DNA from: Candidatus Poribacteria bacterium
Lineage (GTDB): Bacteria; Poribacteria; WGA-4E; WGA-3G
Length of the DNA: 33,376 nucleotides
Assembly: GCA_009839745.1 (NCBI GenBank)
Contig: VXPE01000001.1
Span: 1 to 33,376, forward strand
Direction: 5' to 3'
This document shows positions 1,839 to 33,085 of the stretch, piece by piece. Each line of letters begins with the position of its first letter. Positions within the stretch are counted from its first letter, which is position 1. A model generated the notes under the pieces. That model was given only the letters and a program-made list of their open reading frames with translations. It was not told where the DNA came from and did not search any database. The position numbers and the translations under genes were made by a program.

Positions 1839-2597
1839 TTATCGGATTTGTTTCACCCATGCCCATGTTGTCGTCAGTTTATCTTCCGGGTCAACAGAAA
1901 GCGGTTCGAGATCCAAGGCGTTGGTAACATCAATGTAGTTCGGTTTTCCAAACCCACCGTCGCCATTGTTGCCGTTTTGGGTATTATCGTTGGCGTTGCC
2001 TTCATCGAAAGTGTAGTGGGCGTTTAAGCCCTCTTCATCGCCGTTGAGAACCTTCATCATGAATTCGTTGATTTCTTCTTCAGTTCGAGCGACTTCCCAA
2101 ATACGGATTTCATCAATAGACCCTGTACAGAACCAACTTTTACTATCACCCACGCCGATATACAGTGAGGCATCGGTTGCGGCTAATTCCTTTGCTCCGA
2201 AAGGTGCGGCACCCTTCTCCTCCCCATCAATATATGTCCGCATCTCTTTACCGTCCCAGACTCCAGCGACATGTTGCCATTCGTTCGGCTCCAGTCCAGG
2301 GACATCCAGGATTTTCGTGCCGGGCCAAAGGACAAACCGTAATCCGTTTCCATTTTGGACAATTTCTGGAAAGATGTAATCCCGTTGGCCGCCCCAGTCC
2401 TTTGCAAGGCACTCGCCGACGGGTTTGCTCATGTTCATCCACGCCTCTATCGTTATCTCGGTTTTGGGATTTAAGCTGTCACTATTTGGGACTTCGATAG
2501 CCGTCGCGCCATCTAACTCCAGTGCCAGATTTTTCGCCCAAAGTGTACCAGATATCACCATGCCGATAATAAGGGTTATAAAGAACAAAACTTTCAT
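1839..2597 (-). CDS. secreted LamG/concanavalin A-like domain protein with conserved C-terminal tail
   Basis: A 252-residue exported protein. Residues 1-21 form a Sec signal peptide (basic N terminus, hydrophobic core FFITLIIGMVISG, likely cut after LWA). Residues about 25-200 match the LamG / Laminin_G_3 fold: LALELDGATAIEVPNSDSL, ITIEAWMNM, NEWQHVAGVWDGKEMRTYIDGE and SIDEIRIWEVARTEEEI. This domain typically binds carbohydrate or other extracellular ligands. The last 17 residues (DPEDKLTTTWAWVKQIR) resemble the ends of two other secreted proteins in the window and may be a sorting tail. The ATG at 2597 has a strong AGGAGGA site 5 bases upstream. The gene is isolated: about 90 bases separate it from the zinc-ribbon gene, and a palindromic repeat lies downstream. 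Ligand unknown. Confidence 0.85.
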   Translation of the reverse strand: MKVLFFITLIIGMVISGTLWAKNLALELDGATAIEVPNSDSLNPKTEITIEAWMNMSKPVGECLAKDWGGQRDYIFPEIVQNGNGLRFVLWPGTKILDVPGLEPNEWQHVAGVWDGKEMRTYIDGEEKGAAPFGAKELAATDASLYIGVGDSKSWFCTGSIDEIRIWEVARTEEEINEFMMKVLNGDEEGLNAHYTFDEGNANDNTQNGNNGDGGFGKPNYIDVTNALDLEPLSVDPEDKLTTTWAWVKQIR

Positions 2598-16425: not shown

Positions 16426-17172
16426 CTAATAGCGTGCCTTCAGTATCCCCCACGTTGTCGCCACTTTGCCTTCAGGTTCAACCCCCCACGGTGTCACATT
16501 GTCTTGGAAATACTCGTATTCCACCTCTAAGGAACCCACTCCTGAAGCGACACCCGCATAAATTCCGAGCCACAACGGGGGTGTCATCTTAAAGTCGCCT
16601 GCACCGAAGTCTGTCCAATCGTCATTTGCGTCCATCTTATACCACGCCGTGTAAGTATCTCGCTCTTTCTGGAGCCTGAGGAACAACTCCGTATCCCCGA
16701 AGTCGGGACGCCACGGTGGATCCGGTGGACCGCCAGGCACACCCGCCTCCCGGGTCTGGAACTGGAGTTGCCCTTTAGCACCCGCATCCCGCGACCAGAA
16801 TTTGATGGTGACCCAGTTATTGTCCTTCGGGCTTTTGACGAGAAGGCCATTCACACCGGAATCGGTGTCCCATTTGGAAAAGAAGTGGGTTTCGACATCA
16901 AACATCTCAGCATCCGTTTCCTGATAGAGAAAGTGGGATTCATCCGATGCCCAGATGTTTCGGTTGGTTTCACTGTCGATATATAGGTGATCCGCGCGGG
17001 TTTCACCGACATCCCAATCCGGGGGTTCGTTTTGCCATTTCCAATTCGGATTTTGCAACTTCCCCTTCTCAAAGGGATCCCCGAAGGATTCGTCTGCGGC
17101 GTTTGCGATGCAGGCAACACTGAACATAAGTAAGCAAACGAGCGCGCTATAACAGAAAATTTGGTTTTTCAT
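16426..17172 (-). CDS. secreted DUF1349/concanavalin A-like protein with conserved C-terminal tail
   Basis: A 248-residue exported protein: signal peptide of about 25 residues (CYSALVCLLMFSVACIANA), then a beta-sandwich region resembling DUF1349 (beta-xylosidase C-terminal-like): NPNWKWQNEPPDWDV, FLYQETDAEMFDVETHFF, SGVNGLLVKSPKDNNWVTIKFW, RLQKERDTYTAWYKMDANDDWTDFG and PLWLGIYAGVASG. Proteins with this domain are thought to bind or act on carbohydrates; function unproven. The last 17 residues (EPEGKVATTWGILKARY) belong to the tail family shared with the genes ending at 1839 and 32261. ATG at 17172 is chosen because AGGAGA is 7 bases upstream; the frame extends to 17196 without support. A hairpin repeat lies just upstream at 17190-17216. 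Confidence 0.8.
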   Translation of the reverse strand: MKNQIFCYSALVCLLMFSVACIANAADESFGDPFEKGKLQNPNWKWQNEPPDWDVGETRADHLYIDSETNRNIWASDESHFLYQETDAEMFDVETHFFSKWDTDSGVNGLLVKSPKDNNWVTIKFWSRDAGAKGQLQFQTREAGVPGGPPDPPWRPDFGDTELFLRLQKERDTYTAWYKMDANDDWTDFGAGDFKMTPPLWLGIYAGVASGVGSLEVEYEYFQDNVTPWGVEPEGKVATTWGILKARY

Positions 17173-17242: not shown

Positions 17243-18751
17243 TCATGCCTCAATAATTGCGTCCACAAGACTTTCAACGGATGCCTCCTTCGCAACCACG
17301 TCGACCCGTATATCACGCGCCAGTGCCGTTTTCTGCGTTGTGGGACCGATCACGGCGACCTGGACATTCGCGAGTAAGGCTGTAGGTGTGTGTGCGGGGA
17401 ACATCTCCAAAAAATTCGTAACCGTTGATGAACTGGTGAATGTGATAAAGTCGATGCTACCGTTCAGGAGGTCTGCTTCGATGTCGTCTCGCCTTTTATC
17501 ATCATCGTCCGCCACTTTGAGGGTATCATAAAGCGGCACATCGTTGACGTGTGCCCCCTTCTCGCGCAAACCGTTGGGGAGATCGGCAGCGGCGATTTTC
17601 GCACGTGGCAGGAGGATTTTCTTTCCATTCACGTCTTTCATTTCAGCGGCAATCGCACTGCCGCGAGCGTGAGAAGGAACAAAATCGGGATGAATCCCGA
17701 TGCGATTTAAAGCCTCCACTGTTTTCGCACCAACTGCGCAGATACAGCTCCTACCCAACGCTCGGGCATCCTTTCCGCTTTCCCGTAGACGTTCATAGAA
17801 AATTTCAACGGCGTTGGCACTCGTGAAGATAACCCAATCGTATGCGTTGGGAGGCGGTATGTCCACATCCTCAAGGGGTTGAATCTGTATCGTGGGGAAT
17901 TGGATGACCGCTGCGCCGTTTGCTTCCAAAAGACCTGCGAATTCGCTTGCCTGTGCACGGGCACGTGTGACAAGGATCCGCTTCCCGAAAAGGGGTTTGG
18001 TATCAAACCATCGGAGGTGCCGGCGTAGTCGGTTCACCTCTCCCACAACGATAACCGCCGGACTTTTGAGTTGCGCCGCCTCCACTTTTTGCACGATGTC
18101 GGTAAGCGTGCCTTGGACGATGTGCTGTTGCGGTGTCGTTCCGACGCGGACTAAACTGACTGGAGTTTGCGGGTCTCTACCGTGTGCGATCAGACGCTCC
18201 ACAATCTGATGGAGGTGCGCAACCCCCATGTAGACAACGAGCGTATCGACGGCTGTGGCGAGGTGTGCCCAATTGATGTTTGAATCTGGACGTAGTGCCG
18301 CCGAATGCCCCGTCACAAAAGCGACCGATGAGGCATAGTCGCGGTGTGTGACCGGGATGCCAGCATACGCAGCAGCAGCAATCGCAGACGTGATACCCGG
18401 CACAATCTCGAATGGGATACCGGCTTCCGTGAGAGCAACCGCTTCTTCGCCACCGCGTCCGAATATATACGGATCGCCGCCTTTCAGGCGAATAACAGTT
18501 TTACCCGCTTTGGCATGTTCAACCAGCAAATGATTGAGCTCATTTTGGCGTGTCGTTCGGGTTCTTGGGTCAGGGGCTTTGATTTTTTCGGCGTGCACGG
18601 GGCAATGTTCCAACAACGCATCGTTTAGCAACAGGTCATAGATGACAACATCGGCGCGTTGAAGGCACTCCACACCTTTGAGCGTGATGAGTTTTCTATC
18701 GCCGGGACCAGCGCCTACGATGTAAACAATACCTGTGCTCGGTGTGTTCAT
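17243..18751 (-). CDS. cobA-hemD: fused uroporphyrinogen-III C-methyltransferase and uroporphyrinogen-III synthase
   Basis: A 502-residue bifunctional protein. Residues 1-245 are SUMT/CobA: the P-loop-like VYIVGAGPGDRKLITLKG, VIRLKGGDPYIFGRGGEEA, FEIVPGITSAIAAAAYAGIPVTHR and LVVYMGVAHL. It methylates uroporphyrinogen III at C2 and C7 with SAM to precorrin-2. Residues about 255-502 are HemD: GKRILVTRARAQASEFAGLLEANG, YDWVIFTSANAVEIF, IDFITFTSSSTVTNFLEMF and VAVIGPTTQKTA. HemD closes hydroxymethylbilane to uroporphyrinogen III. The fusion therefore makes and diverts the branch-point product. Its start overlaps the hemC stop by 4 bases (ATGA). Fusions of this kind are known in Firmicutes and others. 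Confidence 0.95.
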   Translation of the reverse strand: MNTPSTGIVYIVGAGPGDRKLITLKGVECLQRADVVIYDLLLNDALLEHCPVHAEKIKAPDPRTRTTRQNELNHLLVEHAKAGKTVIRLKGGDPYIFGRGGEEAVALTEAGIPFEIVPGITSAIAAAAYAGIPVTHRDYASSVAFVTGHSAALRPDSNINWAHLATAVDTLVVYMGVAHLHQIVERLIAHGRDPQTPVSLVRVGTTPQQHIVQGTLTDIVQKVEAAQLKSPAVIVVGEVNRLRRHLRWFDTKPLFGKRILVTRARAQASEFAGLLEANGAAVIQFPTIQIQPLEDVDIPPPNAYDWVIFTSANAVEIFYERLRESGKDARALGRSCICAVGAKTVEALNRIGIHPDFVPSHARGSAIAAEMKDVNGKKILLPRAKIAAADLPNGLREKGAHVNDVPLYDTLKVADDDDKRRDDIEADLLNGSIDFITFTSSSTVTNFLEMFPAHTPTALLANVQVAVIGPTTQKTALARDIRVDVVAKEASVESLVDAIIEA

Positions 18752-19776
18752 TTATCGTTCTCCTGTTCCTTCAACAGTTCTGTTGCCCCACTGTTCCGAA
18801 GTTTTTCGGCAACAATTCCGCCCAGGTGTTGTGCTATATCTGGCGTTCCCGTGGTGCTCCCCACAATACGTCGCGTCCCGTCTGGATGACAAACCGCACC
18901 GATGAGCGAGAGTTCACCCGCAACATGTTTCGCATGTGCACCAATCGGCACTTGGCATCCGCCACCGAGACTTTCCAAAACAGCTCGTTCCGCTGTGGTT
19001 TCTGCTGTTGCTGAAGGGTCATGCAGGGGCAGCAGTAGTTGTTCAACCCTATCGTCGCCCTCCCGCACTTCAATCCCGAGCGCGCCCTGTCCAACCGCCG
19101 GGACCATCTGTTCCGTGTCAAAGAATTGTGTGATAATTTCTGGATCGAGGAGCCGTTTGATGCCTGCCGCAGCGAGGATAATTCCGTCGAGATCGGTTTC
19201 GTAAAGTTTACGCAACCGCGTATCAATGTTGCCTCGCACATCAACGACTTGCAGATCTGGACGGATATAGAGGAGTTGCGCTTTTCGGCGTGGGCTTGTC
19301 GTGCCGATCTTCGCGCCTTCCGGCAAGTCTTCTAAAGGCGATCCTGTGTCTGTGACCAGCACGTCGCGCGGGTCTTCTCGCGTCGGGATGGCGGCAATGC
19401 AAAGCCCCTCCGGCAATTCTGTCGGGAGGTCTTTCAAACTGTGGACAGCGAGGTCGATGGTGCCGGTTAAGAGCGCGTTTTCTATCTCTTTCGTGAAAAT
19501 ACCTTTGCCCAGGCCAACTAACGAGCGGTTTTGGATTGTATCACCGGTAGTTTTGATGGTCTTGAGGGAGACTTCCAAGGTGGGGAAATGGCGTTCCAAT
19601 TGATTTTTGACGAAGTGTGCCTGCCAAAGCGCGAGTTGACTGCCGCGTGTCCCAATTACGAGTTTTTTAATTTTCCCTTGCGGAGCAATTGAGGAGGTTT
19701 CCTGTTTGACGGATTTCCTTTCCGACGAGTCGCCCGCGTCGTTGTTGCGGACTTTGTTTTTGCTTCTAATTTTCAT
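18748..19776 (-). CDS. hemC: hydroxymethylbilane synthase (porphobilinogen deaminase)
   Basis: About 342 residues. After an unusual 38-residue polar, Lys/Ser-rich N-terminal extension the standard enzyme begins at KLVIGTRGSQLALWQAHFV. Then come IDLAVHSLKDLPTELPEGL, the Arg-rich RRKAQLLYIRPDLQVVDVRGNIDTRL, PAVGQGALGIEVR, and the dipyrromethane-cofactor cysteine in LGGGCQVPIGAHA. It joins four porphobilinogens into hydroxymethylbilane. The start is uncertain: ATG at 19776 is used; GTG at 19788 is equally open and neither has a clear SD, consistent with coupling to hemA, whose stop is 6-18 bases upstream. It overlaps cobA-hemD by 4 bases. Confidence 0.95.
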   Translation of the reverse strand: MKIRSKNKVRNNDAGDSSERKSVKQETSSIAPQGKIKKLVIGTRGSQLALWQAHFVKNQLERHFPTLEVSLKTIKTTGDTIQNRSLVGLGKGIFTKEIENALLTGTIDLAVHSLKDLPTELPEGLCIAAIPTREDPRDVLVTDTGSPLEDLPEGAKIGTTSPRRKAQLLYIRPDLQVVDVRGNIDTRLRKLYETDLDGIILAAAGIKRLLDPEIITQFFDTEQMVPAVGQGALGIEVREGDDRVEQLLLPLHDPSATAETTAERAVLESLGGGCQVPIGAHAKHVAGELSLIGAVCHPDGTRRIVGSTTGTPDIAQHLGGIVAEKLRNSGATELLKEQENDK

Positions 19777-19794
19777 TGTACTAACCACTGATGG

Positions 19795-21093
19795 CTATTC
19801 TGGGTTCTCATCGTTAACATCCAAAACGAACAATTCCTGTAGTGCTTGAATATATTGCCCGTGATCGGCATCGCCGTCGTTGACAGCACCACGCAGGTTC
19901 TTCATCGGATGATGGAGCAGCTTTTTGACGATTGCCTGCGTCATGGAGGCGATGGCTTCCTCTTGCGCGTCGGAGAGTGTTGTTTTGTAGAAACACGCTT
20001 GCAATTCGGTGTCGGCTATCTGTCGAAACTGCTGGTGCAATGCTTTAATCGTAGGATTGACTTGAAAGACTTGCAATTGGTCGTAGAAGCGTTTGGCTTC
20101 TTCAGAGACAATCTGTTCTGCGTGGATGGCTTCCTGTTGCCGGTCTTGGAGGTTAGAGGCGACAACGGCTTCCAGATCATCGATATTGTAGAGGAACGCC
20201 GAGTCGAGTTTGCTCACATCCGGATCGATGTCGCGTGGGACAGCGATATCGATGAGGAACATATATCGGTGTTTCCGCTTCCGCATAATGTTGACGAGAG
20301 GCTGTCGCTTGATGAGGTAGTCGGGAGCGTTGGTAGAACTAATGACAATATCGGCATCAATGAGGAAATTGAGATCGCTGTCGTAGGCAAGAGGGGTTCC
20401 CTTAAACTTCTCCGCAACTTTTACCGCCCGTTGGTATGTCCGATTTGCAACAATCACGTTGGAGACCCCATTTGCAATGAGATGCTTTGCTGTGAGTTCG
20501 CTCATCTCTCCTGCCCCGATAATCGCGACGGTCTTGCCTTCGAGGGTGTTGAAAATCTTTTTGGCGAGTTCAACGGCGGCATAACTGATGGAGACGGCAC
20601 CGGTGGTGATTGTCGTTTCGGATCGGATGCGTTTGCCAACGCTGAAGGCTTTCGTGAAAAGGCGGTTGAGAATAGGCCCCGAGCTGCCTGCTGAACGTGA
20701 GGTGTCGTAGGCATCTTTAACTTGACCCAGTATTTGAGACTCACCGACAACCATGGAGTCCAGACTCGATATGACTCTGAAAAGATGCTGGATTGTTTCC
20801 AAGTTATGATGGAGATACGTCCATTTCTTCAGTGATGCCGTATCAATCTGATGGCATCGGGAGAGGAATTCAGCCAATACCTTGCCGGCGGCTTCGGCAG
20901 TCCGCACTGAATTCAGGACTGCATAGACTTCTACCCGATTGCAGGTCGAGAGAATTACTGACTCTTGGATCTGATCGGATTCACGCAGGTGCTGATGGGA
21001 TTCAATGAGTTGTTCTTCGGAAAACGCCAACCTTTCCCTGAATTCAATGGGCGCGACGTGGTGGCTGGTTCCGATGGAGACGAGCTGGTTCAT
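19795..21093 (-). CDS. hemA: glutamyl-tRNA reductase
   Basis: A 432-residue GluTR, which reduces glutamyl-tRNA to glutamate-1-semialdehyde, the first committed step of C5 tetrapyrrole synthesis. The catalytic cysteine is C51 in ILSTCNRVEVYAVL. Other features: the N-terminal IGTSHHVAPIEFRERLAF, SLDSMVVGESQILGQVKDAY, the NADPH motif VAIIGAGEMSELTAKHL, DIVISSTNAPDYL, VPRDIDPDV and the dimerisation helices at the C terminus. Length is typical. It leads a hemA-hemC-cobA/hemD unit with its own strong promoter at 21147-21175. AGGA stands almost directly against the ATG at 21093, so initiation may be weak. Confidence 0.97.
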   Translation of the reverse strand: MNQLVSIGTSHHVAPIEFRERLAFSEEQLIESHQHLRESDQIQESVILSTCNRVEVYAVLNSVRTAEAAGKVLAEFLSRCHQIDTASLKKWTYLHHNLETIQHLFRVISSLDSMVVGESQILGQVKDAYDTSRSAGSSGPILNRLFTKAFSVGKRIRSETTITTGAVSISYAAVELAKKIFNTLEGKTVAIIGAGEMSELTAKHLIANGVSNVIVANRTYQRAVKVAEKFKGTPLAYDSDLNFLIDADIVISSTNAPDYLIKRQPLVNIMRKRKHRYMFLIDIAVPRDIDPDVSKLDSAFLYNIDDLEAVVASNLQDRQQEAIHAEQIVSEEAKRFYDQLQVFQVNPTIKALHQQFRQIADTELQACFYKTTLSDAQEEAIASMTQAIVKKLLHHPMKNLRGAVNDGDADHGQYIQALQELFVLDVNDENPE

Positions 21094-21146
21094 TCCTGTT
21101 ACCCAAAAAATCTAAAAACGTGGGACATCCTTCATACGTTTGCTAA

Positions 21147-21175
21147 ATTATATCACATATCGGGGGTTGTGTCAA
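21147..21175 (-). promoter_or_regulatory. consensus sigma-70 promoter of hemA
   Basis: Minus-strand TTGACA (21170-21175), exactly 17 bases, TATAAT (21147-21152): a perfect consensus match. The predicted start near 21140 leaves a leader of about 47 bases before hemA. It suggests hemA-hemC-cobA/hemD is transcribed apart from the upstream hemB to ccsA genes. Confidence 0.85.
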
Positions 21176-21246
21176 ATTTAGGACTGAGATTAGACTGGTT
21201 CGTAGTAGGGAAACCATTTATTGCCCGTTATATACAACTTTAGAAC

Positions 21247-21262
21247 GTGCGATGAATCGCAC
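21247..21262. repeat. small hairpin GTGCGAT / ATCGCAC
   Basis: GTGCGAT (21247-21253), a 2-base loop and ATCGCAC (21256-21262), a perfect 7-bp stem. It lies between the ccsA-like stop and the hemA promoter, where it could mark the 3' end of the upstream transcript. No T-run follows. Confidence 0.55.
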
Positions 21263-21348
21263 GACTACAAACCCACTTACTCGTAGTCGGAAATCACTGA
21301 TTGTCCATCAATTTGAACGATTTAATAAATTCTTAAAACTAAATATTC

Positions 21349-22191
21349 CTAACGATATGTATGCATGCTGTCTAAAAAGAGATCCACACCAACGTATGTA
21401 CAAAGGACAGCAACGAAACCGATGATTGCGGCATACGCCGCTCTGCGTCCGTGCCACCCCCAAAATTGGCGGATACCGATTTGGGCGATATAGATGAACC
21501 ACGTCACCAAGGTGGAGATTACCTTTGCATCGAGCCATCTCCACGGCACATCTCGGATGTATTGCGTCCAGAGACTCCCGACAATGACGCCCATTGTCAG
21601 TAAAATCACACCTAAAATGGCGCAACGATACCCGAGGATATCGGAAACACCGAGAGACGGAAGAAGGTTATCAAAAAGGGTGTCTGTCTTTCTGCGGATT
21701 TTCCGTTCTGTTATGAGATACATGAGTCCGAACCCACAGGCAGCGATGAACGCCGCATAAGCGAGAAAGATGAGTGTTGTGTGTGCCAGAAGCCAGTAAT
21801 TTTGCAACGGCTCAGGCAGCGCAGCTGTATGCGTAGCAAAACTGTATGAGATGAGTATAGCGATGAACGCAACCGGCATCACGAAACTACCGAGGGTGCG
21901 GAGATGTGTCAAACGCACGATGATGAGATAAATCAGGGTGATTGCCCAAGCGAAGAAGGCAGTGGAGTCGGTCCAGTGGGTCATTGGAAAATGCCCCTGC
22001 TGGAGCCACCAGAGCGCGATAAAGACGGTTAAAAAAGCGAAGCCGATGAGGGTGCACCAAAAAGCGATCTGCTCAATTGTTGGACGAATTGCGGAGGCGT
22101 CAGTCCGAGCCCCAATCGCCAGCGAGAGGGTCTGGAAAATGCCTGCCGCTAAGTATATTAAAAGGGTAATGAGAAATAGAAAATTTATCAT
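21349..22191 (-). CDS. CcsA/HemX family cytochrome c assembly-type membrane protein
   Basis: A 280-residue protein with about 8 membrane helices, matching the CytC_asm (CcsA/ResC/HemX) family: an early WWLQQGHFPMTHWTDSTAFFAW, the conserved NYWLLAHTTLIFLAYAAFIAACGFGLMYLI with its histidine, and a late SLWTQYIRDVPWRWLDAKVISTLVTW. The tryptophan-rich haem-handling WWD segment is degenerate, as in HemX proteins. HemX, usually encoded beside hemA, lowers GluTR levels in Bacillus; CcsA proteins deliver haem to apocytochrome c. The position just upstream of hemA favours HemX-like control, but a CcsA role is possible. It lies 15 bases behind the Met8-like gene, without a visible SD. Confidence 0.85.
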   Translation of the reverse strand: MINFLFLITLLIYLAAGIFQTLSLAIGARTDASAIRPTIEQIAFWCTLIGFAFLTVFIALWWLQQGHFPMTHWTDSTAFFAWAITLIYLIIVRLTHLRTLGSFVMPVAFIAILISYSFATHTAALPEPLQNYWLLAHTTLIFLAYAAFIAACGFGLMYLITERKIRRKTDTLFDNLLPSLGVSDILGYRCAILGVILLTMGVIVGSLWTQYIRDVPWRWLDAKVISTLVTWFIYIAQIGIRQFWGWHGRRAAYAAIIGFVAVLCTYVGVDLFLDSMHTYR

Positions 22192-22206
22192 GTTTTTCGT
22201 GCAATT

Positions 22207-23418
22207 TTAACAACGTCTCTGTTCTTTGTCAAGTCGTTTGGAGGTAAAGGTGTTGGCATGTTCCAGTTTACCGTGACGAACCCAGTTGAAAAGGCATTCG
22301 GCGGAGCATTCAGGATTTGTGAGACCGAGGCAGCATGTTGTAGAAGGGATTTGTAAACCCGATACCGCCTCTTCAACGGTGTCGATCAGCCCTTCAAAGA
22401 AGTCGGCACGCTTTTTAGGGGTCGGGAAAGCCTTGAGAATCTCAGCGCGGCGCGTTCCGAGGAATTCAATAAATACACCGTAGCCGTTGTTTTCAAACTC
22501 GTTGGTGAGTTTTTTATGTAGGCGTTTCGCCTTGTCAATACCTGTGCTACTTCGCGCCGATACGCTAATTATCAGGTTGTCGTCTATGATGAGTTCGGGT
22601 GTAAAGTGGGTCCCAGCGTTCGGTTCATCGAGATATTCCCGAATGCCAATTCCCCCTTGATAAGGGGGGTAAGGCGGGTTGGTATTCAGAGGGTAATCTA
22701 CAGCAGAGCGTTTGTCCGCAATAACGAGGAACGCGTCTTCAAGGTGATAGGGTTTCATCTCGTCGGGCGAGATGTGGACGACAGAGGCACCACATCGGTC
22801 TAACAGAGAGATACGGCGTTCAACTTCGGGTGTTTTCTGTTCGGACACGACAACACATTTACGATTTTCCAATAGAAGGTAAACGGGATACGGGAGTGCT
22901 TGCCCTTCTCTTTCACTGACAATTGGTATGGGCTTACCATCTTCGTATCCGAGTGTATATAACGAAGTGGCATCCAGGATCTTCTCAAAGTGTTCACGGA
23001 TACGACGGCTCGTCGCGGGACTTTTACCGCTCGTTGAGATGCTCAACAGAATCTCACCATCGGTTACAACAGAAGCGGCGGCAAAGGTGCATTGTGGGAT
23101 GACATCAACGACGTTGACGAAGGGGATTTTGTGTTTTTCGTGCGCCTCCGTGAAGACAGCAGAATTAATATCCGTGAAATCGGTGGCGGCACAGACGAGA
23201 AAATAGCCATTCGTATCACCGGTCTGCAACTGCCGTTTGTGCCAGCGGATTGTGCCGATGTTTGCGAGGAACGTCAACAATTCCGTGGTATCCGGACTGA
23301 TGACGGTGACATTGCCACCGCTGAGGAGCATGGCGACAACTTTCCGCTCCGCAACGGTACCCCCGCCGACAACGAGACATTTCTTGTCCTGAAGGTTTAT
23401 ATGGGCAGGATAGAACAT
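22207..23418 (-). CDS. precorrin-2 dehydrogenase/sirohydrochlorin ferrochelatase (Met8/CysG-N) with a tandem degenerate second copy
   Basis: A 403-residue protein, about twice the usual Met8-type length. Residues 1-148 form a complete CysG-N module: the NAD motif KCLVVGGGTVAERKV, the catalytic Asp (D105) in VNVVDVIPQCTF, and ISTSGKSPATSRRIREHF. It oxidises precorrin-2 and inserts iron to form sirohaem. Residues about 175-306 repeat the fold: YPVYLLLENRKCVVVSEQ, SVVHISPDE, FLVIADKRS, D264, and ISVSARSSTGIDKAKRLHKKL. The glycine-rich NAD loop is lost here. Residues 247-258 (NPPYPPYQGGIG) are a translated palindromic repeat. The C terminus (360-403) is Cys-rich (C362, C363, C371, C375, C403). 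The gene is 15 bases from each neighbour and lacks a clear SD. Confidence 0.88.
   Translation of the reverse strand: MFYPAHINLQDKKCLVVGGGTVAERKVVAMLLSGGNVTVISPDTTELLTFLANIGTIRWHKRQLQTGDTNGYFLVCAATDFTDINSAVFTEAHEKHKIPFVNVVDVIPQCTFAAASVVTDGEILLSISTSGKSPATSRRIREHFEKILDATSLYTLGYEDGKPIPIVSEREGQALPYPVYLLLENRKCVVVSEQKTPEVERRISLLDRCGASVVHISPDEMKPYHLEDAFLVIADKRSAVDYPLNTNPPYPPYQGGIGIREYLDEPNAGTHFTPELIIDDNLIISVSARSSTGIDKAKRLHKKLTNEFENNGYGVFIEFLGTRRAEILKAFPTPKKRADFFEGLIDTVEEAVSGLQIPSTTCCLGLTNPECSAECLFNWVRHGKLEHANTFTSKRLDKEQRRC
22652..22668. repeat. in-frame palindromic repeat inside the Met8-like gene
   Basis: CCCCCTT GAT AAGGGGG is a perfect 7-bp-stem palindrome. On the minus strand it is read in frame as part of NPPYPPYQGGIG. 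It is a variant of the repeat cores at 1797-1812 and about 33238-33254. It falls between aligned segments of the second Rossmann copy, just before D264. Confidence 0.8.
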
Positions 23419-23433
23419 TTTTTAATGTTACCT

Positions 23434-24417
23434 TTAGGACTCGCGTGAAACAACATAATCTGCGAGGTGTTCCAGGGCACTGCGAGCAGGGATCTCCGGT
23501 AAGGTTGACAATGCGGCTTTGGCGCGATCGGCATAGCCTTGGGCGATCTTCAAACAGTGGGTCTCGACACCGTATCGTTGGAACAGAGCCTCGACAAAGG
23601 CAATCGCCTCGGTTTCATCGGTCCCAGGGTTTAGCACTTTTTCAAGCGTCTGTTTCTCATCGTCATCGCAAACAGATCTTGCATAGATGATGGGGAAGGT
23701 GAGTTTTCCTTCGCGGAGGTCGCCGAACGCGTCTTTCCCCAATGTATCGGAATCTTCTGTGAAATCGAGCAGGTCATCTACAATTTGGAAGGCTGTCCCG
23801 ATCTGTTGTCCGTAGGTTGTGAGTGCGTCAATTTGTTGTGTTTCTGTTGGGTTTCCGAGATGTGCACCGAGGGTGCAGGACGCAGCGATCAGTTTACCGG
23901 TTTTAAAACTGATAATTTTGAGGTATTCGGCTTCGGAGATGTCGAAATCGCCGCTCTTGTATGCGTGTATAACCTCACCTTCACACATTGCCTGTGTGGT
24001 ATCGGCGAGGATTGCCATCGCTGGATCGTCCGCACGGCGGGATACAAGCATTGAAAGCACGCGTGCGTGGAGGTAATCTCCGACGAGGACTGCGACTTTG
24101 TTGCCCCATTTCGTCTGTAGCGTCTCACGTCCCCGGCGGATCGCGGCTTCGTCGAGGACATCGTCGTGAACGAGCGATGCGACATGGATGAGTTCGACAA
24201 CGGCGGCAAGCGTGTGCGCATCGCTCCCTTCGTATCCGCAGACTTTCGCAGAAAGCACAACGAGAATCGGGCGGAGGCGTTTACCGCCACCCTCCACAAC
24301 GTGTTGAACTGCCATGTCAACGAACGTATATTCACTGACGGTATCTTCAGTGAGTTTCGCCTCAACGGCACTGAGATCCTCGGCAATCAATTCAACGATT
24401 TGATCAAAGTTGGACAT
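23434..24417 (-). CDS. trans-polyprenyl diphosphate synthase
   Basis: About 327 residues of the polyprenyl_synt family (octa/hepta/nonaprenyl diphosphate synthase, IspB/HepT-like). It extends farnesyl diphosphate with isopentenyl diphosphate to make quinone side chains. The first Asp-rich motif is LVHDDVLDEAAIRRG, the second FQIVDDLLDFTEDSDTLGK; GGGKRLRP, GDYLHARVL and the KTG.L element (SFKTGKLIAAS) are also present. Absence of bulky residues cannot be used to set chain length here. ATG at 24417 is used, GTG at 24429 is possible; neither has a strong SD. It sits between hemL and the Met8-like gene with 34 and 15 bases of spacing, so it is co-transcribed with tetrapyrrole genes. Quinone and haem supply may be linked for respiration. 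Confidence 0.93.
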   Translation of the reverse strand: MSNFDQIVELIAEDLSAVEAKLTEDTVSEYTFVDMAVQHVVEGGGKRLRPILVVLSAKVCGYEGSDAHTLAAVVELIHVASLVHDDVLDEAAIRRGRETLQTKWGNKVAVLVGDYLHARVLSMLVSRRADDPAMAILADTTQAMCEGEVIHAYKSGDFDISEAEYLKIISFKTGKLIAASCTLGAHLGNPTETQQIDALTTYGQQIGTAFQIVDDLLDFTEDSDTLGKDAFGDLREGKLTFPIIYARSVCDDDEKQTLEKVLNPGTDETEAIAFVEALFQRYGVETHCLKIAQGYADRAKAALSTLPEIPARSALEHLADYVVSRES

Positions 24418-24451
24418 AATGTAGGGCACCCCGTATGGCTGCCTTTTCCCT

Positions 24452-25735
24452 TTAGAGATTTGCCAATGCTTGTGTTGCGGCTTGAACGGTGTTGTTGATG
24501 TCCTCTTCGGAGTGAACTAAGGAGACAAATCCTGCCTCAAATTGGGAGGGCGCGACAGAGACACCGCGTTCTATAAGTCCCCAGAAGTAGTGTTGAAAAC
24601 GTTCGGTATCCGCTGTGCGTGCACCATCGGCATCTGTGACACTTTCTGGCGTGAAGTAGAGCATTAGCATCGAACCGACCCGACTGTGCCATGCGTCAAC
24701 ATCGTGTTTTTGGGTCGCCTCGGCGAGACCCGCTGCGAGGGCAGCAGCACTGTTTTCGAGGTGTTCATAAATCCCCGGTTCAGCGAGACGTTTCAACGTT
24801 GCTATACCTGCGGTAACGGCTAACGGATTTCCAGAGAGTGTTCCCGCCTGATAGACCTCGCCTTCTGGGGCAACGCATCGCATGATGTCCCGTTTTCCGC
24901 CGTATGCCCCGACAGGCAACCCACCACCGATAATCTTTCCGAGACAGGTCATGTCGGGTGTAACGTTATAATAGGATTGCGCACCACCGTAAGCGACTCG
25001 GAAGCCGGTGATAACTTCATCGAAGATAAGCACGATGCCGTGTTCTTCAGTGATTTCACGGAGCTGATCGAGATACCCCTCACGCGGTGGGATGATGCCC
25101 ATATTGCCCATAATCGGTTCGAGAATGAGACAGGCGATTTCGTCCGGGTTGGCTTCTATCGCTTCACGGACAGCGTCCGGGTTATTGAAGGGGACTGTGA
25201 GTGTATTGCGTGCAAAATCTTCAGGGACCCCCCCGCTATCGGAAAGCCCAAACGTTGCAATACCCGATCCAGCTTTCGCTAATAGGTAGTCCACGTGCCC
25301 GTGATAGCAGCCGTCAATTTTGAGAATTTTATCACGACCGGTATACCCGCGGGCGACACGAATTGCGCTCATGGTGGCTTCGGTGCCAGAATTGACGAGT
25401 CGCACCTGTTCGATTGAGGGGACTGCATTGACAATGGTTTCGGCGAGTTCTGTCTCGCGAGGCGTCGGTGCGCCGAAACTCGTGCCGTTCACTGCTATTG
25501 AACGGATAGCCTCTATGACACTCGGATACGCGTGTCCGAGAACCAAGGGACCCCAGGAGGCGACATAGTCAATATATTCGTTCCCATCGATGTCGTAGAT
25601 TTTCGAGCCTTCGCCGCGTTCGATGAAACGGGGATGTCTGCCGACTTTGCTGAAATTTCGGACGGGACTGTTAACCCCACCGGGGATGAATTGTTGTGAT
25701 TTTTGCCATGCAGCTAAGGATTTACTGCTCTCCAA
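24452..25735 (-). CDS. hemL: glutamate-1-semialdehyde 2,1-aminomutase
   Basis: A 427-residue class III PLP enzyme that converts glutamate-1-semialdehyde to 5-aminolevulinate. Markers: QQFIPGGVNSPVRNF near the N terminus, DGNEYIDYVASWGPLVLGHAYP, VRLVNSGTEATMSAIRVARGYTGRDKILKIDGCYHGHVD, the Asp of LIFDEVITGFRVAYGG, and the PLP lysine in CLGKIIGGGLPVGAYGG. The frame is open to 25855, but that extension translates the repeat at 25780-25896. TTG at 25735 has GGAGG 7 bases upstream and gives exactly the usual family length, so it is chosen. It lies 174 bases after hemB, a gap filled mostly by that repeat. Confidence 0.96.
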   Translation of the reverse strand: MESSKSLAAWQKSQQFIPGGVNSPVRNFSKVGRHPRFIERGEGSKIYDIDGNEYIDYVASWGPLVLGHAYPSVIEAIRSIAVNGTSFGAPTPRETELAETIVNAVPSIEQVRLVNSGTEATMSAIRVARGYTGRDKILKIDGCYHGHVDYLLAKAGSGIATFGLSDSGGVPEDFARNTLTVPFNNPDAVREAIEANPDEIACLILEPIMGNMGIIPPREGYLDQLREITEEHGIVLIFDEVITGFRVAYGGAQSYYNVTPDMTCLGKIIGGGLPVGAYGGKRDIMRCVAPEGEVYQAGTLSGNPLAVTAGIATLKRLAEPGIYEHLENSAAALAAGLAEATQKHDVDAWHSRVGSMLMLYFTPESVTDADGARTADTERFQHYFWGLIERGVSVAPSQFEAGFVSLVHSEEDINNTVQAATQALANL

Positions 25736-25779
25736 AGTGTTTCCTCCAAATTTTCTATGGCTTTCGGTTATCAATAAAA

Positions 25780-25896
25780 AGTTGGCAAGTGAGAAGAAAG
25801 TTATGAAGTTTGCAACTGTACTAAAGTTTGCAAGTGAGAAGAGGTTCTTCCTCAACTTTAACTACACTTTACAGACTTTAGCACACTTTACAGACC
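25780..25896. repeat. intergenic repeat with inverted arms, copy 2
   Basis: The left arm contains three AGTTTGCAA/AGTTGGCAA-type units (GTTGGCAAGTGAGAAGAAAG, AGTTTGCAACTGTACTA, AAAGTTTGCAAGTGAGAAG). The right arm (25863-25896) contains CACTTTACAGACTTTAGCAC and CACTTTACAGAC. Arms are imperfect inverted repeats of each other, as at 14688-14832. It separates hemB from hemL and may be a structured leader or a terminator-like barrier. Confidence 0.7.
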
Positions 25897-25909
25897 GCTA
25901 ACCGCCAGA

Positions 25910-26881
25910 TTATAGCCACTCGACAACCGATTTTGCAAAGTAGGTTAAAATCATATCCGCCCCTGCGCGCTTTATACTGTTGAGGACCTCCAAAGCGACC
26001 CGCTCTTCGTCAATCCAACCGTTTTGTGCCGCGGCTTTAATCATGGCGTATTCACCGCTGACGTTGTAAGCCGCAACAGGGACCTGAAATTCTGTTTTGA
26101 CCCGATGGATAACGTCGAGGTAGGAGAGAGCGGGTTTCACCATGAGGATGTCCGCACCTTCTTGGATGTCCAAGGCAACCTCGCGCAACGCCTCTTCCGC
26201 ATTTGCTGGATCCATCTGATAGGCGCGCCGATCTCCGAATTGGGGGGTCGATTCCGCCGCTTCCCGAAACGGACCGTAGAAGGCAGAGGCGTATTTGGCA
26301 GAATATGCCATAATCGGGATGTTTTCATAACCGTTTTCGTCTAACGCCTCACGAATCGCCCCGACACGACCGTCCATCATATCTGACGGTGCGATGACAT
26401 CCGCACCGGCGCGGGCATGCGACAGGCTCTCCCTAACGAGGACTTCCACAGTCGGATCGTTCTGCACTTCCCCAGCTTCGATGAGACCGCAGTGTCCGTG
26501 ATCGGTGTATTCACAGAGACATACATCTGTCATGACAAGCAGATCCGGCACAGCGTCTTTGATGGCTCGGACGGCTTGTTGGATGATCCCATCGTCGGCG
26601 TATGCCTCAGAGCCGAGCGGGTCTTTTGCCTCCGGGATGCCGAACAGGATTGTCCCAGGGATTCCGAGCGCGGCGAGCTCTTTCGCGGCGATGATCAGGG
26701 TGTCAACCGAGTATTGGTAGCACCCGGGCATGGCGGAAATTTCGGTCGCGGTGTTATGTCCGTGGACGACAAACATCGGGTAGATAAGGTCGTTGGCGGA
26801 GAGCGCAGTCTCGCGAACCAATCGGCGCAGGTTCTCATTTGCGCGAAGTCGCCTCGGACGATAGATAGGAAAAGTACTCAT
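25910..26881 (-). CDS. hemB: porphobilinogen synthase (delta-aminolevulinic acid dehydratase)
   Basis: A 323-residue enzyme that condenses two 5-aminolevulinate molecules to porphobilinogen. It has the zinc-site cysteines C121, C123 and C131 in [14 protein letters not shown], the Schiff-base lysine region [14 protein letters not shown] (K196) and [12 protein letters not shown] (K249). Thus it is the zinc-dependent type rather than the magnesium type with Asp replacements. Start [15 protein letters not shown] is typical. GGAGG lies 4 bases before the ATG at 26881, and the ATG overlaps the stop of the upstream secreted-protein gene (ATGA). That overlap ties an unknown exported protein to the tetrapyrrole operon. 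Confidence 0.97.
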
Positions 26882-30833: not shown

Positions 30834-32264
30834 TTGAAAAATGATTTGACAATTATCGGCGGCGGAAGTGCCGGACTCGTGCTCGCCGTTGCCGGTGCTA
30901 AATTGGGTAAGAAGACCGCACTCGTGGAGAAACACCGCATGGGTGGCGACTGCCTCTGGACGGGATGTGTGCCTTCCAAAGCACTCCTGAAGGCGGCGAA
31001 GGTGGCGAATTACGTCAGGGACGCTGAGAAATACGGCGTTGCAAGCACCCCTACAACGCCTGACTGGCAACGTGTGATGGCGTATGTGAGAAGCACCCAA
31101 CACGCCATAGAGGAGGAACACGACAATCCTGAGCGATTCCGTGAGATGGGCGTTGATGTCATCTTCGGCAACGGGCATTTTGCGTCCGCTGACAGTTTTG
31201 TTGTAGAGGATACGGAGAGTGGTCAAACCCGCACCCTCAAAAGCAAAAAGTTCGTGATTAGCACGGGGTCCCGTCCTGTTGCGCCACCCATACCCGGCTT
31301 GGAATCTTGCGGCTATCTCGACAGTGAGAACGTCTGGGATCTTGAGACGTTCCCCAATCGGTTGCTCGTTGTGGGCGCGGGTCCAATCGGTATTGAACTC
31401 GGGCAGGCATTTCATCGCCTGGGTGCGGATGTGACGATAGCGCAACGGAGTGAACGCATTCTGACGAAAGAGGATACCGATGTTTCTGAACAGATGCTGC
31501 GTTACCTCCGCGAGGAAGGGATCACGATCCGACTGAATACGAGTATCGCAGACGTTGTGAAAAATCAGGAAGGCACAACTGTTACGTTTAACGATAGTGG
31601 AAATGGAACTGTAGAGCAGGCTTTTGATAACATTTTGATTGCCGCGGGACGCGCACCGAACATTGAGGGTTTAGCACTTGACAAAATCGGGGTGCAGGTC
31701 GGCACACGTGGGATTGAAGTGAACAATAAACTTCAAACGAGCGTGAAAAATATCTATGCCGCAGGCGATGTAATCGGACATTACCTGTTCACACATGTTG
31801 CGGCGTTTCAGGCGCAGCTGCTCCTCCGAAATATCTTTTTCCCACTCTCTCAAACGATTAACTATGCTGTCGTGCCGTGGACAACCTTCTGTGATCCAGA
31901 AGTTGCCCGTTGCGGGTTAACAGAAGCGGAAGCACGCGAGAAATATGGAGACATTGATGTATTTACGCTAGACCAACGGGATGTCGACAGAGCCGTCGCT
32001 GAGGGTGAGACGCACGGCTTCAGCAAAGTCATCGCGAGTCGGTGGACTGGGAAAATATTAGGCGTGCATCTCGTTGGTGCAAACGCGGGGGAGGTCATCC
32101 ACGAGTATATCCTTGCGATGCAAGAGGGGATTCCGTTGCGGAAATTGAGCGGAATGATCCACGTGTATCCGACGTTTTCGAGCAGTGTCTGGCGCGTGGC
32201 AGGTAAATGGTTCTCAGAAAGCACCTTGATTCAAACGTTACGGAAGTTGATCCCGTCGGGCTAA
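30834..32264 (+). CDS. mercuric reductase/lipoamide dehydrogenase-like FAD disulfide oxidoreductase
   Basis: A 476-residue class I pyridine nucleotide-disulfide oxidoreductase. FAD motif DLTIIGGGSAGLVLAVAGAKLG, redox-active CxxxxC in GGDCLWTGCVPSKAL, FVISTGSRPVAPPIPG, NAD(P)H motif LLVVGAGPIGIELGQAFHRLGADV, second FAD motif IYAAGDVIG, and the dimerisation domain. The C-terminal active-site loop reads IHVYPTFSSSVW where glutathione reductase/LpdA proteins have HxHPTxxE: the acid-base His is Tyr and the Glu is Ser. No mercury-binding N-terminal HMA domain or C-terminal Cys pair exists, so mercury reduction is unlikely; the electron acceptor is unknown. The TTG start follows a duplicated AGGAG. 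The stop codon overlaps that of the convergent gene. Confidence 0.9.
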   Translation: MKNDLTIIGGGSAGLVLAVAGAKLGKKTALVEKHRMGGDCLWTGCVPSKALLKAAKVANYVRDAEKYGVASTPTTPDWQRVMAYVRSTQHAIEEEHDNPERFREMGVDVIFGNGHFASADSFVVEDTESGQTRTLKSKKFVISTGSRPVAPPIPGLESCGYLDSENVWDLETFPNRLLVVGAGPIGIELGQAFHRLGADVTIAQRSERILTKEDTDVSEQMLRYLREEGITIRLNTSIADVVKNQEGTTVTFNDSGNGTVEQAFDNILIAAGRAPNIEGLALDKIGVQVGTRGIEVNNKLQTSVKNIYAAGDVIGHYLFTHVAAFQAQLLLRNIFFPLSQTINYAVVPWTTFCDPEVARCGLTEAEAREKYGDIDVFTLDQRDVDRAVAEGETHGFSKVIASRWTGKILGVHLVGANAGEVIHEYILAMQEGIPLRKLSGMIHVYPTFSSSVWRVAGKWFSESTLIQTLRKLIPSG

Positions 32265-33085
32265 AAACGCTTTAGACGTCCCCAGACCGTCGCGAGCTTC
32301 GCGTTCGGTGTTACCGATAACCCGGCACTGTTCGGGATACTGTCGCCGGTGATTACGACGTTGTCGAATCTCGCCGTCTGATTCGAGAGACCCAAGCCCG
32401 CTGCACCCGTCAAGAAGTCTTGGAATCCGTTTAAATCTAATGGGTGAAATATCTTTATATTTCCCGGTTTAGGGGGATGCGCCTTTTTGGCAGCTTCACG
32501 ATCCTTGAAAGTTTTACGGTTTGGAAGTTGAACGGGTCCAATAACCAGCTTACCGTTAATCCAAAAGTTTAGGGTATCTCCTTCAACTGCCAACTTCAAC
32601 TGCGACCACCTGTTTAATTTTAAAAATCGACGGAGCTTGGCATGTCTATAGAAAATTGTGTTTTGGTCATGAAAATTACCAGAACCCATTAGAGCCTCGG
32701 AGGCGTGTTCGCGAAATGGCGGCAAATCGCCGATGACACACCATGCCACCCAGCTTCCCTTGATTCGAGCGGCAATAGCGATATTGCTGCGCCCCGGTTT
32801 ATTAAGGGGTTTGACATCAAATTCGATGGTGTAATCGCGCCAAGTCTCATCACCAATTGTGAGCAAACGTGTGCTCTCATCGGGGCTTACCGCATGAAGT
32901 TCCTCGTCAACGATTTCCCAGGAACCGGGAGGCGGATCATCCACATCACGAAAAAGAAAATCCTGCGTCATAATAAGTTCCTGCCACGCATCCAAGTTTC
33001 CGTTATCAAAATTCTCTCGAAACATCCCTGCCTTTGCTGAGAAGGTAAAGAGGAAAATTATACTTGCAATCATTAATAGTTTCAT
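32261..33085 (-). CDS. secreted concanavalin-like (DUF1080-type) protein with conserved C-terminal tail
   Basis: A 274-residue exported protein. It has a signal peptide (residues 1-19, LLMIASIIFLFTFSAKA) and then a jelly-roll domain similar to DUF1080/3-keto-disaccharide hydrolase or family-16-like folds: FRENFDNGNLDAWQEL, GSWEIVDEELHAVSPDESTRLLTIG, YTIEFDVKPLNKPGRSNIAIAAR, LNRWSQLKLAVEGDTLNFWINGKLV and AGLGLSNQTARFDNVVI. Its last 17 residues (TPNAKLATVWGRLKRF and neighbours) share the tail of the proteins ending at 1839 and 16426. A strong AAAGGAGG site precedes the ATG at 33085. Its stop (TAG at 32261-32263) overlaps the TAA of the convergent flavoprotein gene. Bases 33086-33214 upstream hold no gene. 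Substrate unknown. Confidence 0.8.
   Translation of the reverse strand: MKLLMIASIIFLFTFSAKAGMFRENFDNGNLDAWQELIMTQDFLFRDVDDPPPGSWEIVDEELHAVSPDESTRLLTIGDETWRDYTIEFDVKPLNKPGRSNIAIAARIKGSWVAWCVIGDLPPFREHASEALMGSGNFHDQNTIFYRHAKLRRFLKLNRWSQLKLAVEGDTLNFWINGKLVIGPVQLPNRKTFKDREAAKKAHPPKPGNIKIFHPLDLNGFQDFLTGAAGLGLSNQTARFDNVVITGDSIPNSAGLSVTPNAKLATVWGRLKRF

Follow-up and report, generated by a model that had tools for sequence, protein, structure and literature searches.

Three genes on the minus strand of this locus encode exported proteins that share a C-terminal tail (Table 1). The window is the whole stretch of 33,376 nucleotides that was analysed and makes up the entire contig C1 of a 5.04 Mb Candidatus Poribacteria genome in 141 contigs. 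The positions of the three genes on the minus strand and the C-terminal ends quoted for them in the preliminary description are correct, and each protein has a signal-peptide-like start by our own heuristic, as that description had claimed. It had also reported that two other exported proteins of the window lack the tail, and these do end differently, in ...SSSSEVE and ...HVFWVE. Its statement that the three tail proteins have different folds was wrong for the window, because Laminin_G_3, GH43_C2 and 3keto-disac_hyd (the last of which we take to have this fold) are all concanavalin-like beta-sandwiches; it was right genome-wide, where other folds carry the tail. A porphyrin/haem biosynthesis cluster, recognised by eye from the translations, lies between two of the tail genes (window 17243-26881, minus strand).

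Table 1. Tail-bearing genes of the window and their parts
Feature	Position	Strand	Evidence or remark
Exported LamG-domain protein, 252 aa	1842..2597	-	Pfam Laminin_G_3, E 3.8e-27
C-terminal tail VDPEDKLTTTWAWVKQIR	1842..1895	-	End of LamG protein; AlphaFold pLDDT 30-40, outside the domain
Low-confidence, probably flexible linker (residues 189-234) joining the LamG domain to the tail	1896..2033	-	pLDDT <50 over residues 189-252
Exported GH43_C2/DUF1349-like protein, 248 aa	16429..17172	-	Pfam GH43_C2, E 9.8e-6
C-terminal tail VEPEGKVATTWGILKARY	16429..16482	-	End of GH43_C2/DUF1349-like protein
Exported DUF1080-like (3keto-disac_hyd) protein, 274 aa	32264..33085	-	Pfam 3keto-disac_hyd, E 2.4e-9
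C-terminal tail VTPNAKLATVWGRLKRF	32264..32314	-	End of DUF1080-like protein

A 17-residue consensus typed from the three window tails found 127 matches in the whole source genome at E ≤ 10. The reversed peptide found none in the same genome, so the tail is not a chance pattern. In all 127 cases the match closes the reading frame, beginning 14-33 residues before the stop; none is inside a protein, and we saw none on a plainly cytoplasmic protein. More than 100 long genes of the source genome carry the tail, which is about 18 residues long. With its Trp set at 0, the consensus reads V(-10)-[ED]-[PA]-x-G-K(-5)-L-[AT]-T-T-W(0)-[GA]-x-[LI]-K(+4), followed by a few residues to the stop. When the 127 tails are aligned on their last Trp (which in two proteins is not that of the tail), V-10 occurs in 111, P-8 in 89 (A in 26), K-5 in 110, L-4 in 110, T-2 in 100, T-1 in 82, W0 in 126, G+1 in 90 (A in 31), L+3 in 80 (I in 35) and K+4 in 122. 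A search of PDB sequences with the tail returned short fragments only, the best of them (E 0.00077) from an 8-residue segment that recurs in a designed protein. A few orphan tails stand in very short or broken frames (G000:C59:8621, C114:4453, C75:86304 and C119:14616) and are apparently remnants of tail genes.

The tail is found throughout the phylum. A profile built from 48 tails and run at E ≤ 0.1 against 84 phylum genomes, covering 21 genera and 10 families, matched in all 84, with 32 to at least 107 matches each, the counts at the upper end being lower bounds. An exact DNA-level search of the GTDB genome collection with the strict pattern K-[LF]-A-T-T-W-G-[KR]-[LF]-K hit at least 115 stretches, and among the matches listed 115 of 115 are titled Poribacteria; viral contigs gave no match. 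As far as this one strict pattern shows, and among the matches listed, the tail would thus be restricted to Poribacteria. Position was examined for 131 pattern matches in relatives, from at least 115 stretches other than the source genome: 130 reach the stop after 1-6 residues and the remaining one is cut by the end of the DNA. In open-licence papers, judged mostly by title and the start of the abstract, we found no description of the tail or of type IX machinery in Poribacteria.

The carriers are exported proteins. Signal-peptide-like starts are present in 118 of the 127 tail frames. Seven of the other nine are orphan, shortened or contig-cut frames, and the last two (C36:40810 and C70:4010) look like real signal peptides missed by the rule or the choice of start. 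A second count by another script, limited to ORFs of at least 120 residues with a visible start, gave 111 of 118 source-genome tail proteins and 110 of 368 non-tail ORFs from the same loci; in relatives this script gave 200 of 209 tail proteins. That nearly all carriers have signal peptides is therefore what these counts show, by rules for signal peptides, transmembrane (TM) segments and lipoboxes that are simple and home-made, with no trained predictor. The claim that the tail lacks a membrane helix also stands, as none of the 111 source-genome tail proteins with a signal peptide has a TM segment beyond it. A lipobox occurs in 4 of 111 tail proteins against 12 of 88 non-tail signal-peptide ORFs without a TM segment in the source genome, and in 3 of 199 against 34 of 162 in relatives. 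The non-tail comparison set includes some frame shadows, some cytoplasmic enzymes miscalled as exported and no fewer than two tail-bearing proteins overlooked by the tail rule. Lipoboxes are rare among the carriers, so the tail and lipoprotein anchoring are nearly exclusive.

The domains that precede the tail are diverse. Pfam searches of the 121 tail proteins of at least 150 residues gave 38 families in all, many of them overlapping, and among the matches listed 63 proteins have Laminin_G_3, 9 PD40, 6 3keto-disac_hyd, 3 LTD (lamin-tail domain), 2 Kelch and 2 F5/8. Several folds are thus represented, including beta-propellers and lamin-tail-domain proteins. Wherever the matched stretches were displayed, Pfam and NCBIfam matches stop before the tail. 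The tail could have been a structural element passed down within a single expanded family of lectin-like proteins, with no role in sorting, and the dominance of Laminin_G_3 (63 of 121 carriers) and the concanavalin-like folds of the window's three proteins fit that idea. However, it does not account for the PD40, LTD, Kelch and F5/8 carriers. It also fails to explain why the tail is far more conserved than the bodies of the proteins, with a mean pairwise identity of 54% against 22% over 3000 random pairs from the 121 proteins.

Predicted structures bear on the same point. AlphaFold folds the window's LamG protein over about residues 24-188 (pLDDT 67-95 by block); residues 189-252 stay below 50, with values of 30-40 in blocks of ten. 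In a tail-bearing PD40 propeller, the propeller itself is confident, pLDDT falls from 57 to 39 along the tail, and the last tail residues form a low-confidence short helix. In these models the tail is outside the folded domain in two unrelated folds, LamG and propeller, and the linker of the LamG protein (residues 189-234) is probably flexible. The spread of folds, the conservation of the tail and its position outside the domain largely refute simple inheritance within a lectin-like family, which we now consider improbable.

Within a wider family of 27 PD40 propellers, the terminal core W-[GAS]-x-[LIVM]-[KR] is kept and the preceding residues vary. The PD40 tail propellers at L052, L073 and L080 (G000 C101, C5 and C45) adjoin a gene for a 298-residue protein, and an ORF named by eye as prepilin-peptidase-like and membrane-bound also lies beside them. 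Elsewhere, an exported protein (L063:2217-4076, minus strand) ends in a dockerin-like repeat, LNGDGVVNVLDLVLVANEF, read by eye, which is possibly another docking device of this genome.

Selection acts at the level of the peptide. Every synonymous codon occurs at the conserved columns of the tail; at L-4, for example, CTC occurs 44 times, TTG 18, TTA 18, CTT 17, CTG 9 and CTA 5. Such mixed codons imply selection on the amino acids. A DNA-level element inserted at gene ends could in principle have left the few orphan tails in broken or very short frames, but the codon mixture and the lack of conserved DNA after the stop (0.03 bits per column over the 40 bases 3' of it) rule this out, and its probability is close to nil. 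A tag for periplasmic degradation or quality control would also be short, C-terminal and outside the folded domain. We regard this as very improbable, as more than 100 exported proteins would be unlikely to carry a constitutive degron.

The preliminary description set the tail apart from sortase, PEP-CTERM and rhombosortase signals, and our results agree: there is no TM helix in the tail, and the corresponding enzymes are missing or not universal. PEP-CTERM, GlyGly-CTERM and LPXTG signals combine a motif with a TM helix and a basic end. The poribacterial tail resembles these signals of the exosortase, rhombosortase and sortase systems in that one C-terminal signal serves many exported proteins per genome, and differs in having no TM helix. 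Sortase (PF04203) was found in 0 of 84 phylum genomes, with three Gram-positive controls positive. Exosortase (PF09721) was found in 3 of 84 only and not in the source genome. Rhombosortase (TIGR03902) was over cut-off in 0 of 84, with weak rhomboid-like matches in 26 of 84 (the source genome not among them) and in 14 of 14 controls. The search for an accompanying protease or transpeptidase family, suggested in the preliminary description, thus gave no phylum-wide candidate among these three. An unknown processing enzyme or transpeptidase may still recognise the tail, cut it and join the protein to the surface without type IX. The probably flexible linker before the tail would suit such a reaction, and the near-invariant Lys and Trp suggest specific recognition. 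The enzyme counts above and the lack of a TM helix beside the tail, unlike in PEP-CTERM and GlyGly-CTERM, nevertheless make this reading unlikely.

Encapsulin cargo-loading peptides offer another comparison. As generally described, they are short and C-terminal, sit on a linker and have a G-x-L-[KR]-like end, all of which recalls the tail. Encapsulin cargo is cytoplasmic and has no signal peptide, whereas tail carriers are exported and have one. The tail might serve as a non-covalent anchor by which the carriers are bound to a receptor at the surface or outer membrane that has nothing to do with type IX, much as encapsulin cargo peptides and dockerins are held. This would agree with the position of the short peptide beyond the domain, at the end of a low-confidence linker, with the near exclusion of lipoboxes (another anchoring device) and with the lack of sortase in the phylum. 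On the other side, no receptor family was found: in neighbour clusters inspected by eye, some of them probably frame shadows, no partner gene near the tails stood out. We see this type of anchor as possible, if somewhat doubtful.

The closest parallel in kind may be the type IX C-terminal domain (CTD). Like the tail, the type A CTD (TIGR04183) is C-terminal and is found on Sec-exported proteins of many folds. Its Lys near the C terminus is described as almost invariant (PMC10994853), which recalls K(+4) of the tail. A second source describes known type IX CTDs as folded domains of about 40-82 residues, and reports that the last 22 residues of Hbp35 are necessary for secretion and attachment of GFP (PMC11969387). 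The same source describes short CTDs of Prevotella intermedia, of 40-55 residues with three predicted beta-strands and motifs B, D and E, as a cut-down type IX signal with PorV as its presumed binding partner (PMC11969387). At about 18 residues the poribacterial tail is much shorter than these, and none of motifs B, D and E was recognised in it. It has no beta-sandwich, in contrast to the type A CTD, and no profile similarity to it. At E ≤ 0.01 the 121 tail proteins matched 20 NCBIfam families, and TIGR04183 is none of these. The comparison with type IX CTDs called for in the preliminary description found no similarity between the tail and poribacterial CTDs in hhalign (P 0.13 and 0.72). These values also led us to reject the idea that the tail is the degenerate end of a type IX CTD, even though the CTD end, GDFTATRKMLILK, seemed to align with it by eye. 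By sequence the tail fails membership in the type IX CTDs, but it may still work like one. In kind it belongs with C-terminal sorting signals, and its sequence matches none of those tested.

Kamke et al. 2014 reported TIGR04183 tails in Poribacteria and stated that the structural genes were not found (PMC3909097). We find candidates for several of these. SprA (TIGR04189) matches in 83 of 84 genomes at E ≤ 1e-3 and in 0 of 14 controls, mostly as one frame near 2,200 residues, with only one genome of the 84 (G006) over the curated cut-off. The SprA-like protein of the source genome has 2259 residues and scores 138.7 bits against a cut-off of 200; phmmer found no match to it in the PDB. The PorV family is over cut-off in 84 of 84 genomes and in 0 of 14 controls. 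The source genome has 16 PorV-family matches from about 15 genes, 7 of them over cut-off, and the other genomes have 8-24. The source-genome matches lie on contigs C27, C75, C65, C52, C6, C54, C122, C42, C3, C41, C50, C137, C2 and C8. The best-scoring proteins are those of C27, C75 and C65. The matches on C42, C122 and C54 adjoin a CTD match, which suggests dedicated shuttles.

Peptidase C25 occurs in 83 of 84 genomes and in 0 of 14 controls. The C25 protein on C42 of the source genome scores 403.6 bits against the PorU model (cut-off 420) and has a C-terminal FlgD-Ig-like domain; immediately next to it is a gene of the PorV family (87.8 bits against a cut-off of 90). Loci for SprA-like, PorV-family and PorU/C25-like proteins are found at G000:C42 (locus L248:6507-13283, minus strand) and L316:2498-10143 (minus strand). 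TIGR04183 gave 40 matches at E ≤ 0.1, with 33 rows over cut-off; 6 of 14 controls match and 1 is over cut-off. The GldM model (TIGR03517) had no match in the source genome at E ≤ 0.1, a weak negative because no control genome exceeded its cut-off either. We read these matches as a diverged type IX apparatus in Poribacteria, with a motor that is not recognisable with the GldM model.

Several observations speak for a link between the tail and this apparatus. First, 6 of 29 CTD-ended proteins, recognised by our own pattern in the stretches analysed, share a domain with tail-ended proteins at a best E of 1e-27 or lower. Four of the six are in L300, L308 and L314, and their tail partners are mainly L032_1498 and L032_2987; a seventh CTD-ended protein, in L299, matches a propeller only weakly (E 1.4e-5). 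One homologous domain can thus end in either the tail or the CTD, depending on the protein. Second, in 7 of 10 SprA loci of the window's genus (L327:2549-10228, and L324, L328, L329, L331, L341 and L342), the gene directly upstream of SprA on the same strand, 77-358 bp away, encodes a small LamG protein with the tail motif. L341 is counted among the seven although 15 residues follow its motif, which left it unflagged by the tail rule. Under a loose end rule, tail genes occur somewhere in 11 of 21 SprA stretches (that of the source genome and 20 chosen from the SprA matches). Third, tail and CTD each have a Lys near the C terminus that hardly varies.

Other results weaken the case. A tail gene is near SprA in only 1 of 11 loci from other genera. 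The adjacency of tail and SprA is confined to one genus, and the synteny there is inherited. PorV is not enriched near tails, with 6 cases in 234 loci against about 5 by chance (a hand estimate). In addition, the CTD proteins alone would explain the presence of type IX genes. As there is evidence both for and against it, we treat the link between tail and type IX as a working hypothesis.

We infer that the tail directs sorting, a role that the positions, signal peptides and folds described above support well. It is highly probable that the tail is a sorting, docking or processing signal in the broad sense, and the earlier suggestion of an uncharacterised export, surface-attachment or processing signal is supported by 127 of 127 C-terminal positions, 118 of 127 signal peptides and several folds. 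The type IX route is much less secure, and we would put it at slightly under an even chance; from the genes present, we infer that type IX proteins are the machinery that reads the tail. Taken as one statement, that the tail is a lineage-specific C-terminal sorting signal and perhaps a minimal type IX-type signal is a tentative proposal, about as likely to fail as to hold, or a little more so.

In the model we propose, the carrier would cross the inner membrane via Sec, using its signal peptide. Its domain would then fold in the periplasm, while a flexible linker keeps the tail clear of it. An outer-membrane receptor would bind the tail and hand the carrier on to the cell surface or the exterior. 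The best candidate for this receptor would be a PorV-family shuttle acting together with the SprA-like translocon of Poribacteria. The tail would be a minimal type IX-type signal mainly for small cargo and the CTD would serve large cargo, in keeping with median carrier sizes of 265 residues for the tail (n=119) and 868 for the CTD (n=28). In its fullest form the model is more tentative still: a phylum-wide, Poribacteria-specific 18-residue sorting code, V-x-P-x-G-K-L-x-T-T-W-G-x-L-K, would direct small exported proteins, at least 100 per genome, to the surface by way of a diverged type IX translocon with an expanded set of PorV-like shuttles. It would be the smallest signal of the type IX class, distinct from the classical CTD that serves the large cargo of that cell.

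Entire secretion and anchoring pathways have repeatedly come to light through C-terminal sorting signals. The tail is short and has clear key residues (K-5, W0 and K+4), which opens it to peptide and reporter tests without culture of Poribacteria. Kamke et al. 2014 reported CTD tails and no machinery (PMC3909097), and the presence of candidate SprA, PorV and PorU proteins makes this an open question again. The tail has matches in every poribacterial genome searched, and a large part of the surface or secretome of these major sponge-associated bacteria, including the lectin-like LamG proteins, would be defined by it.
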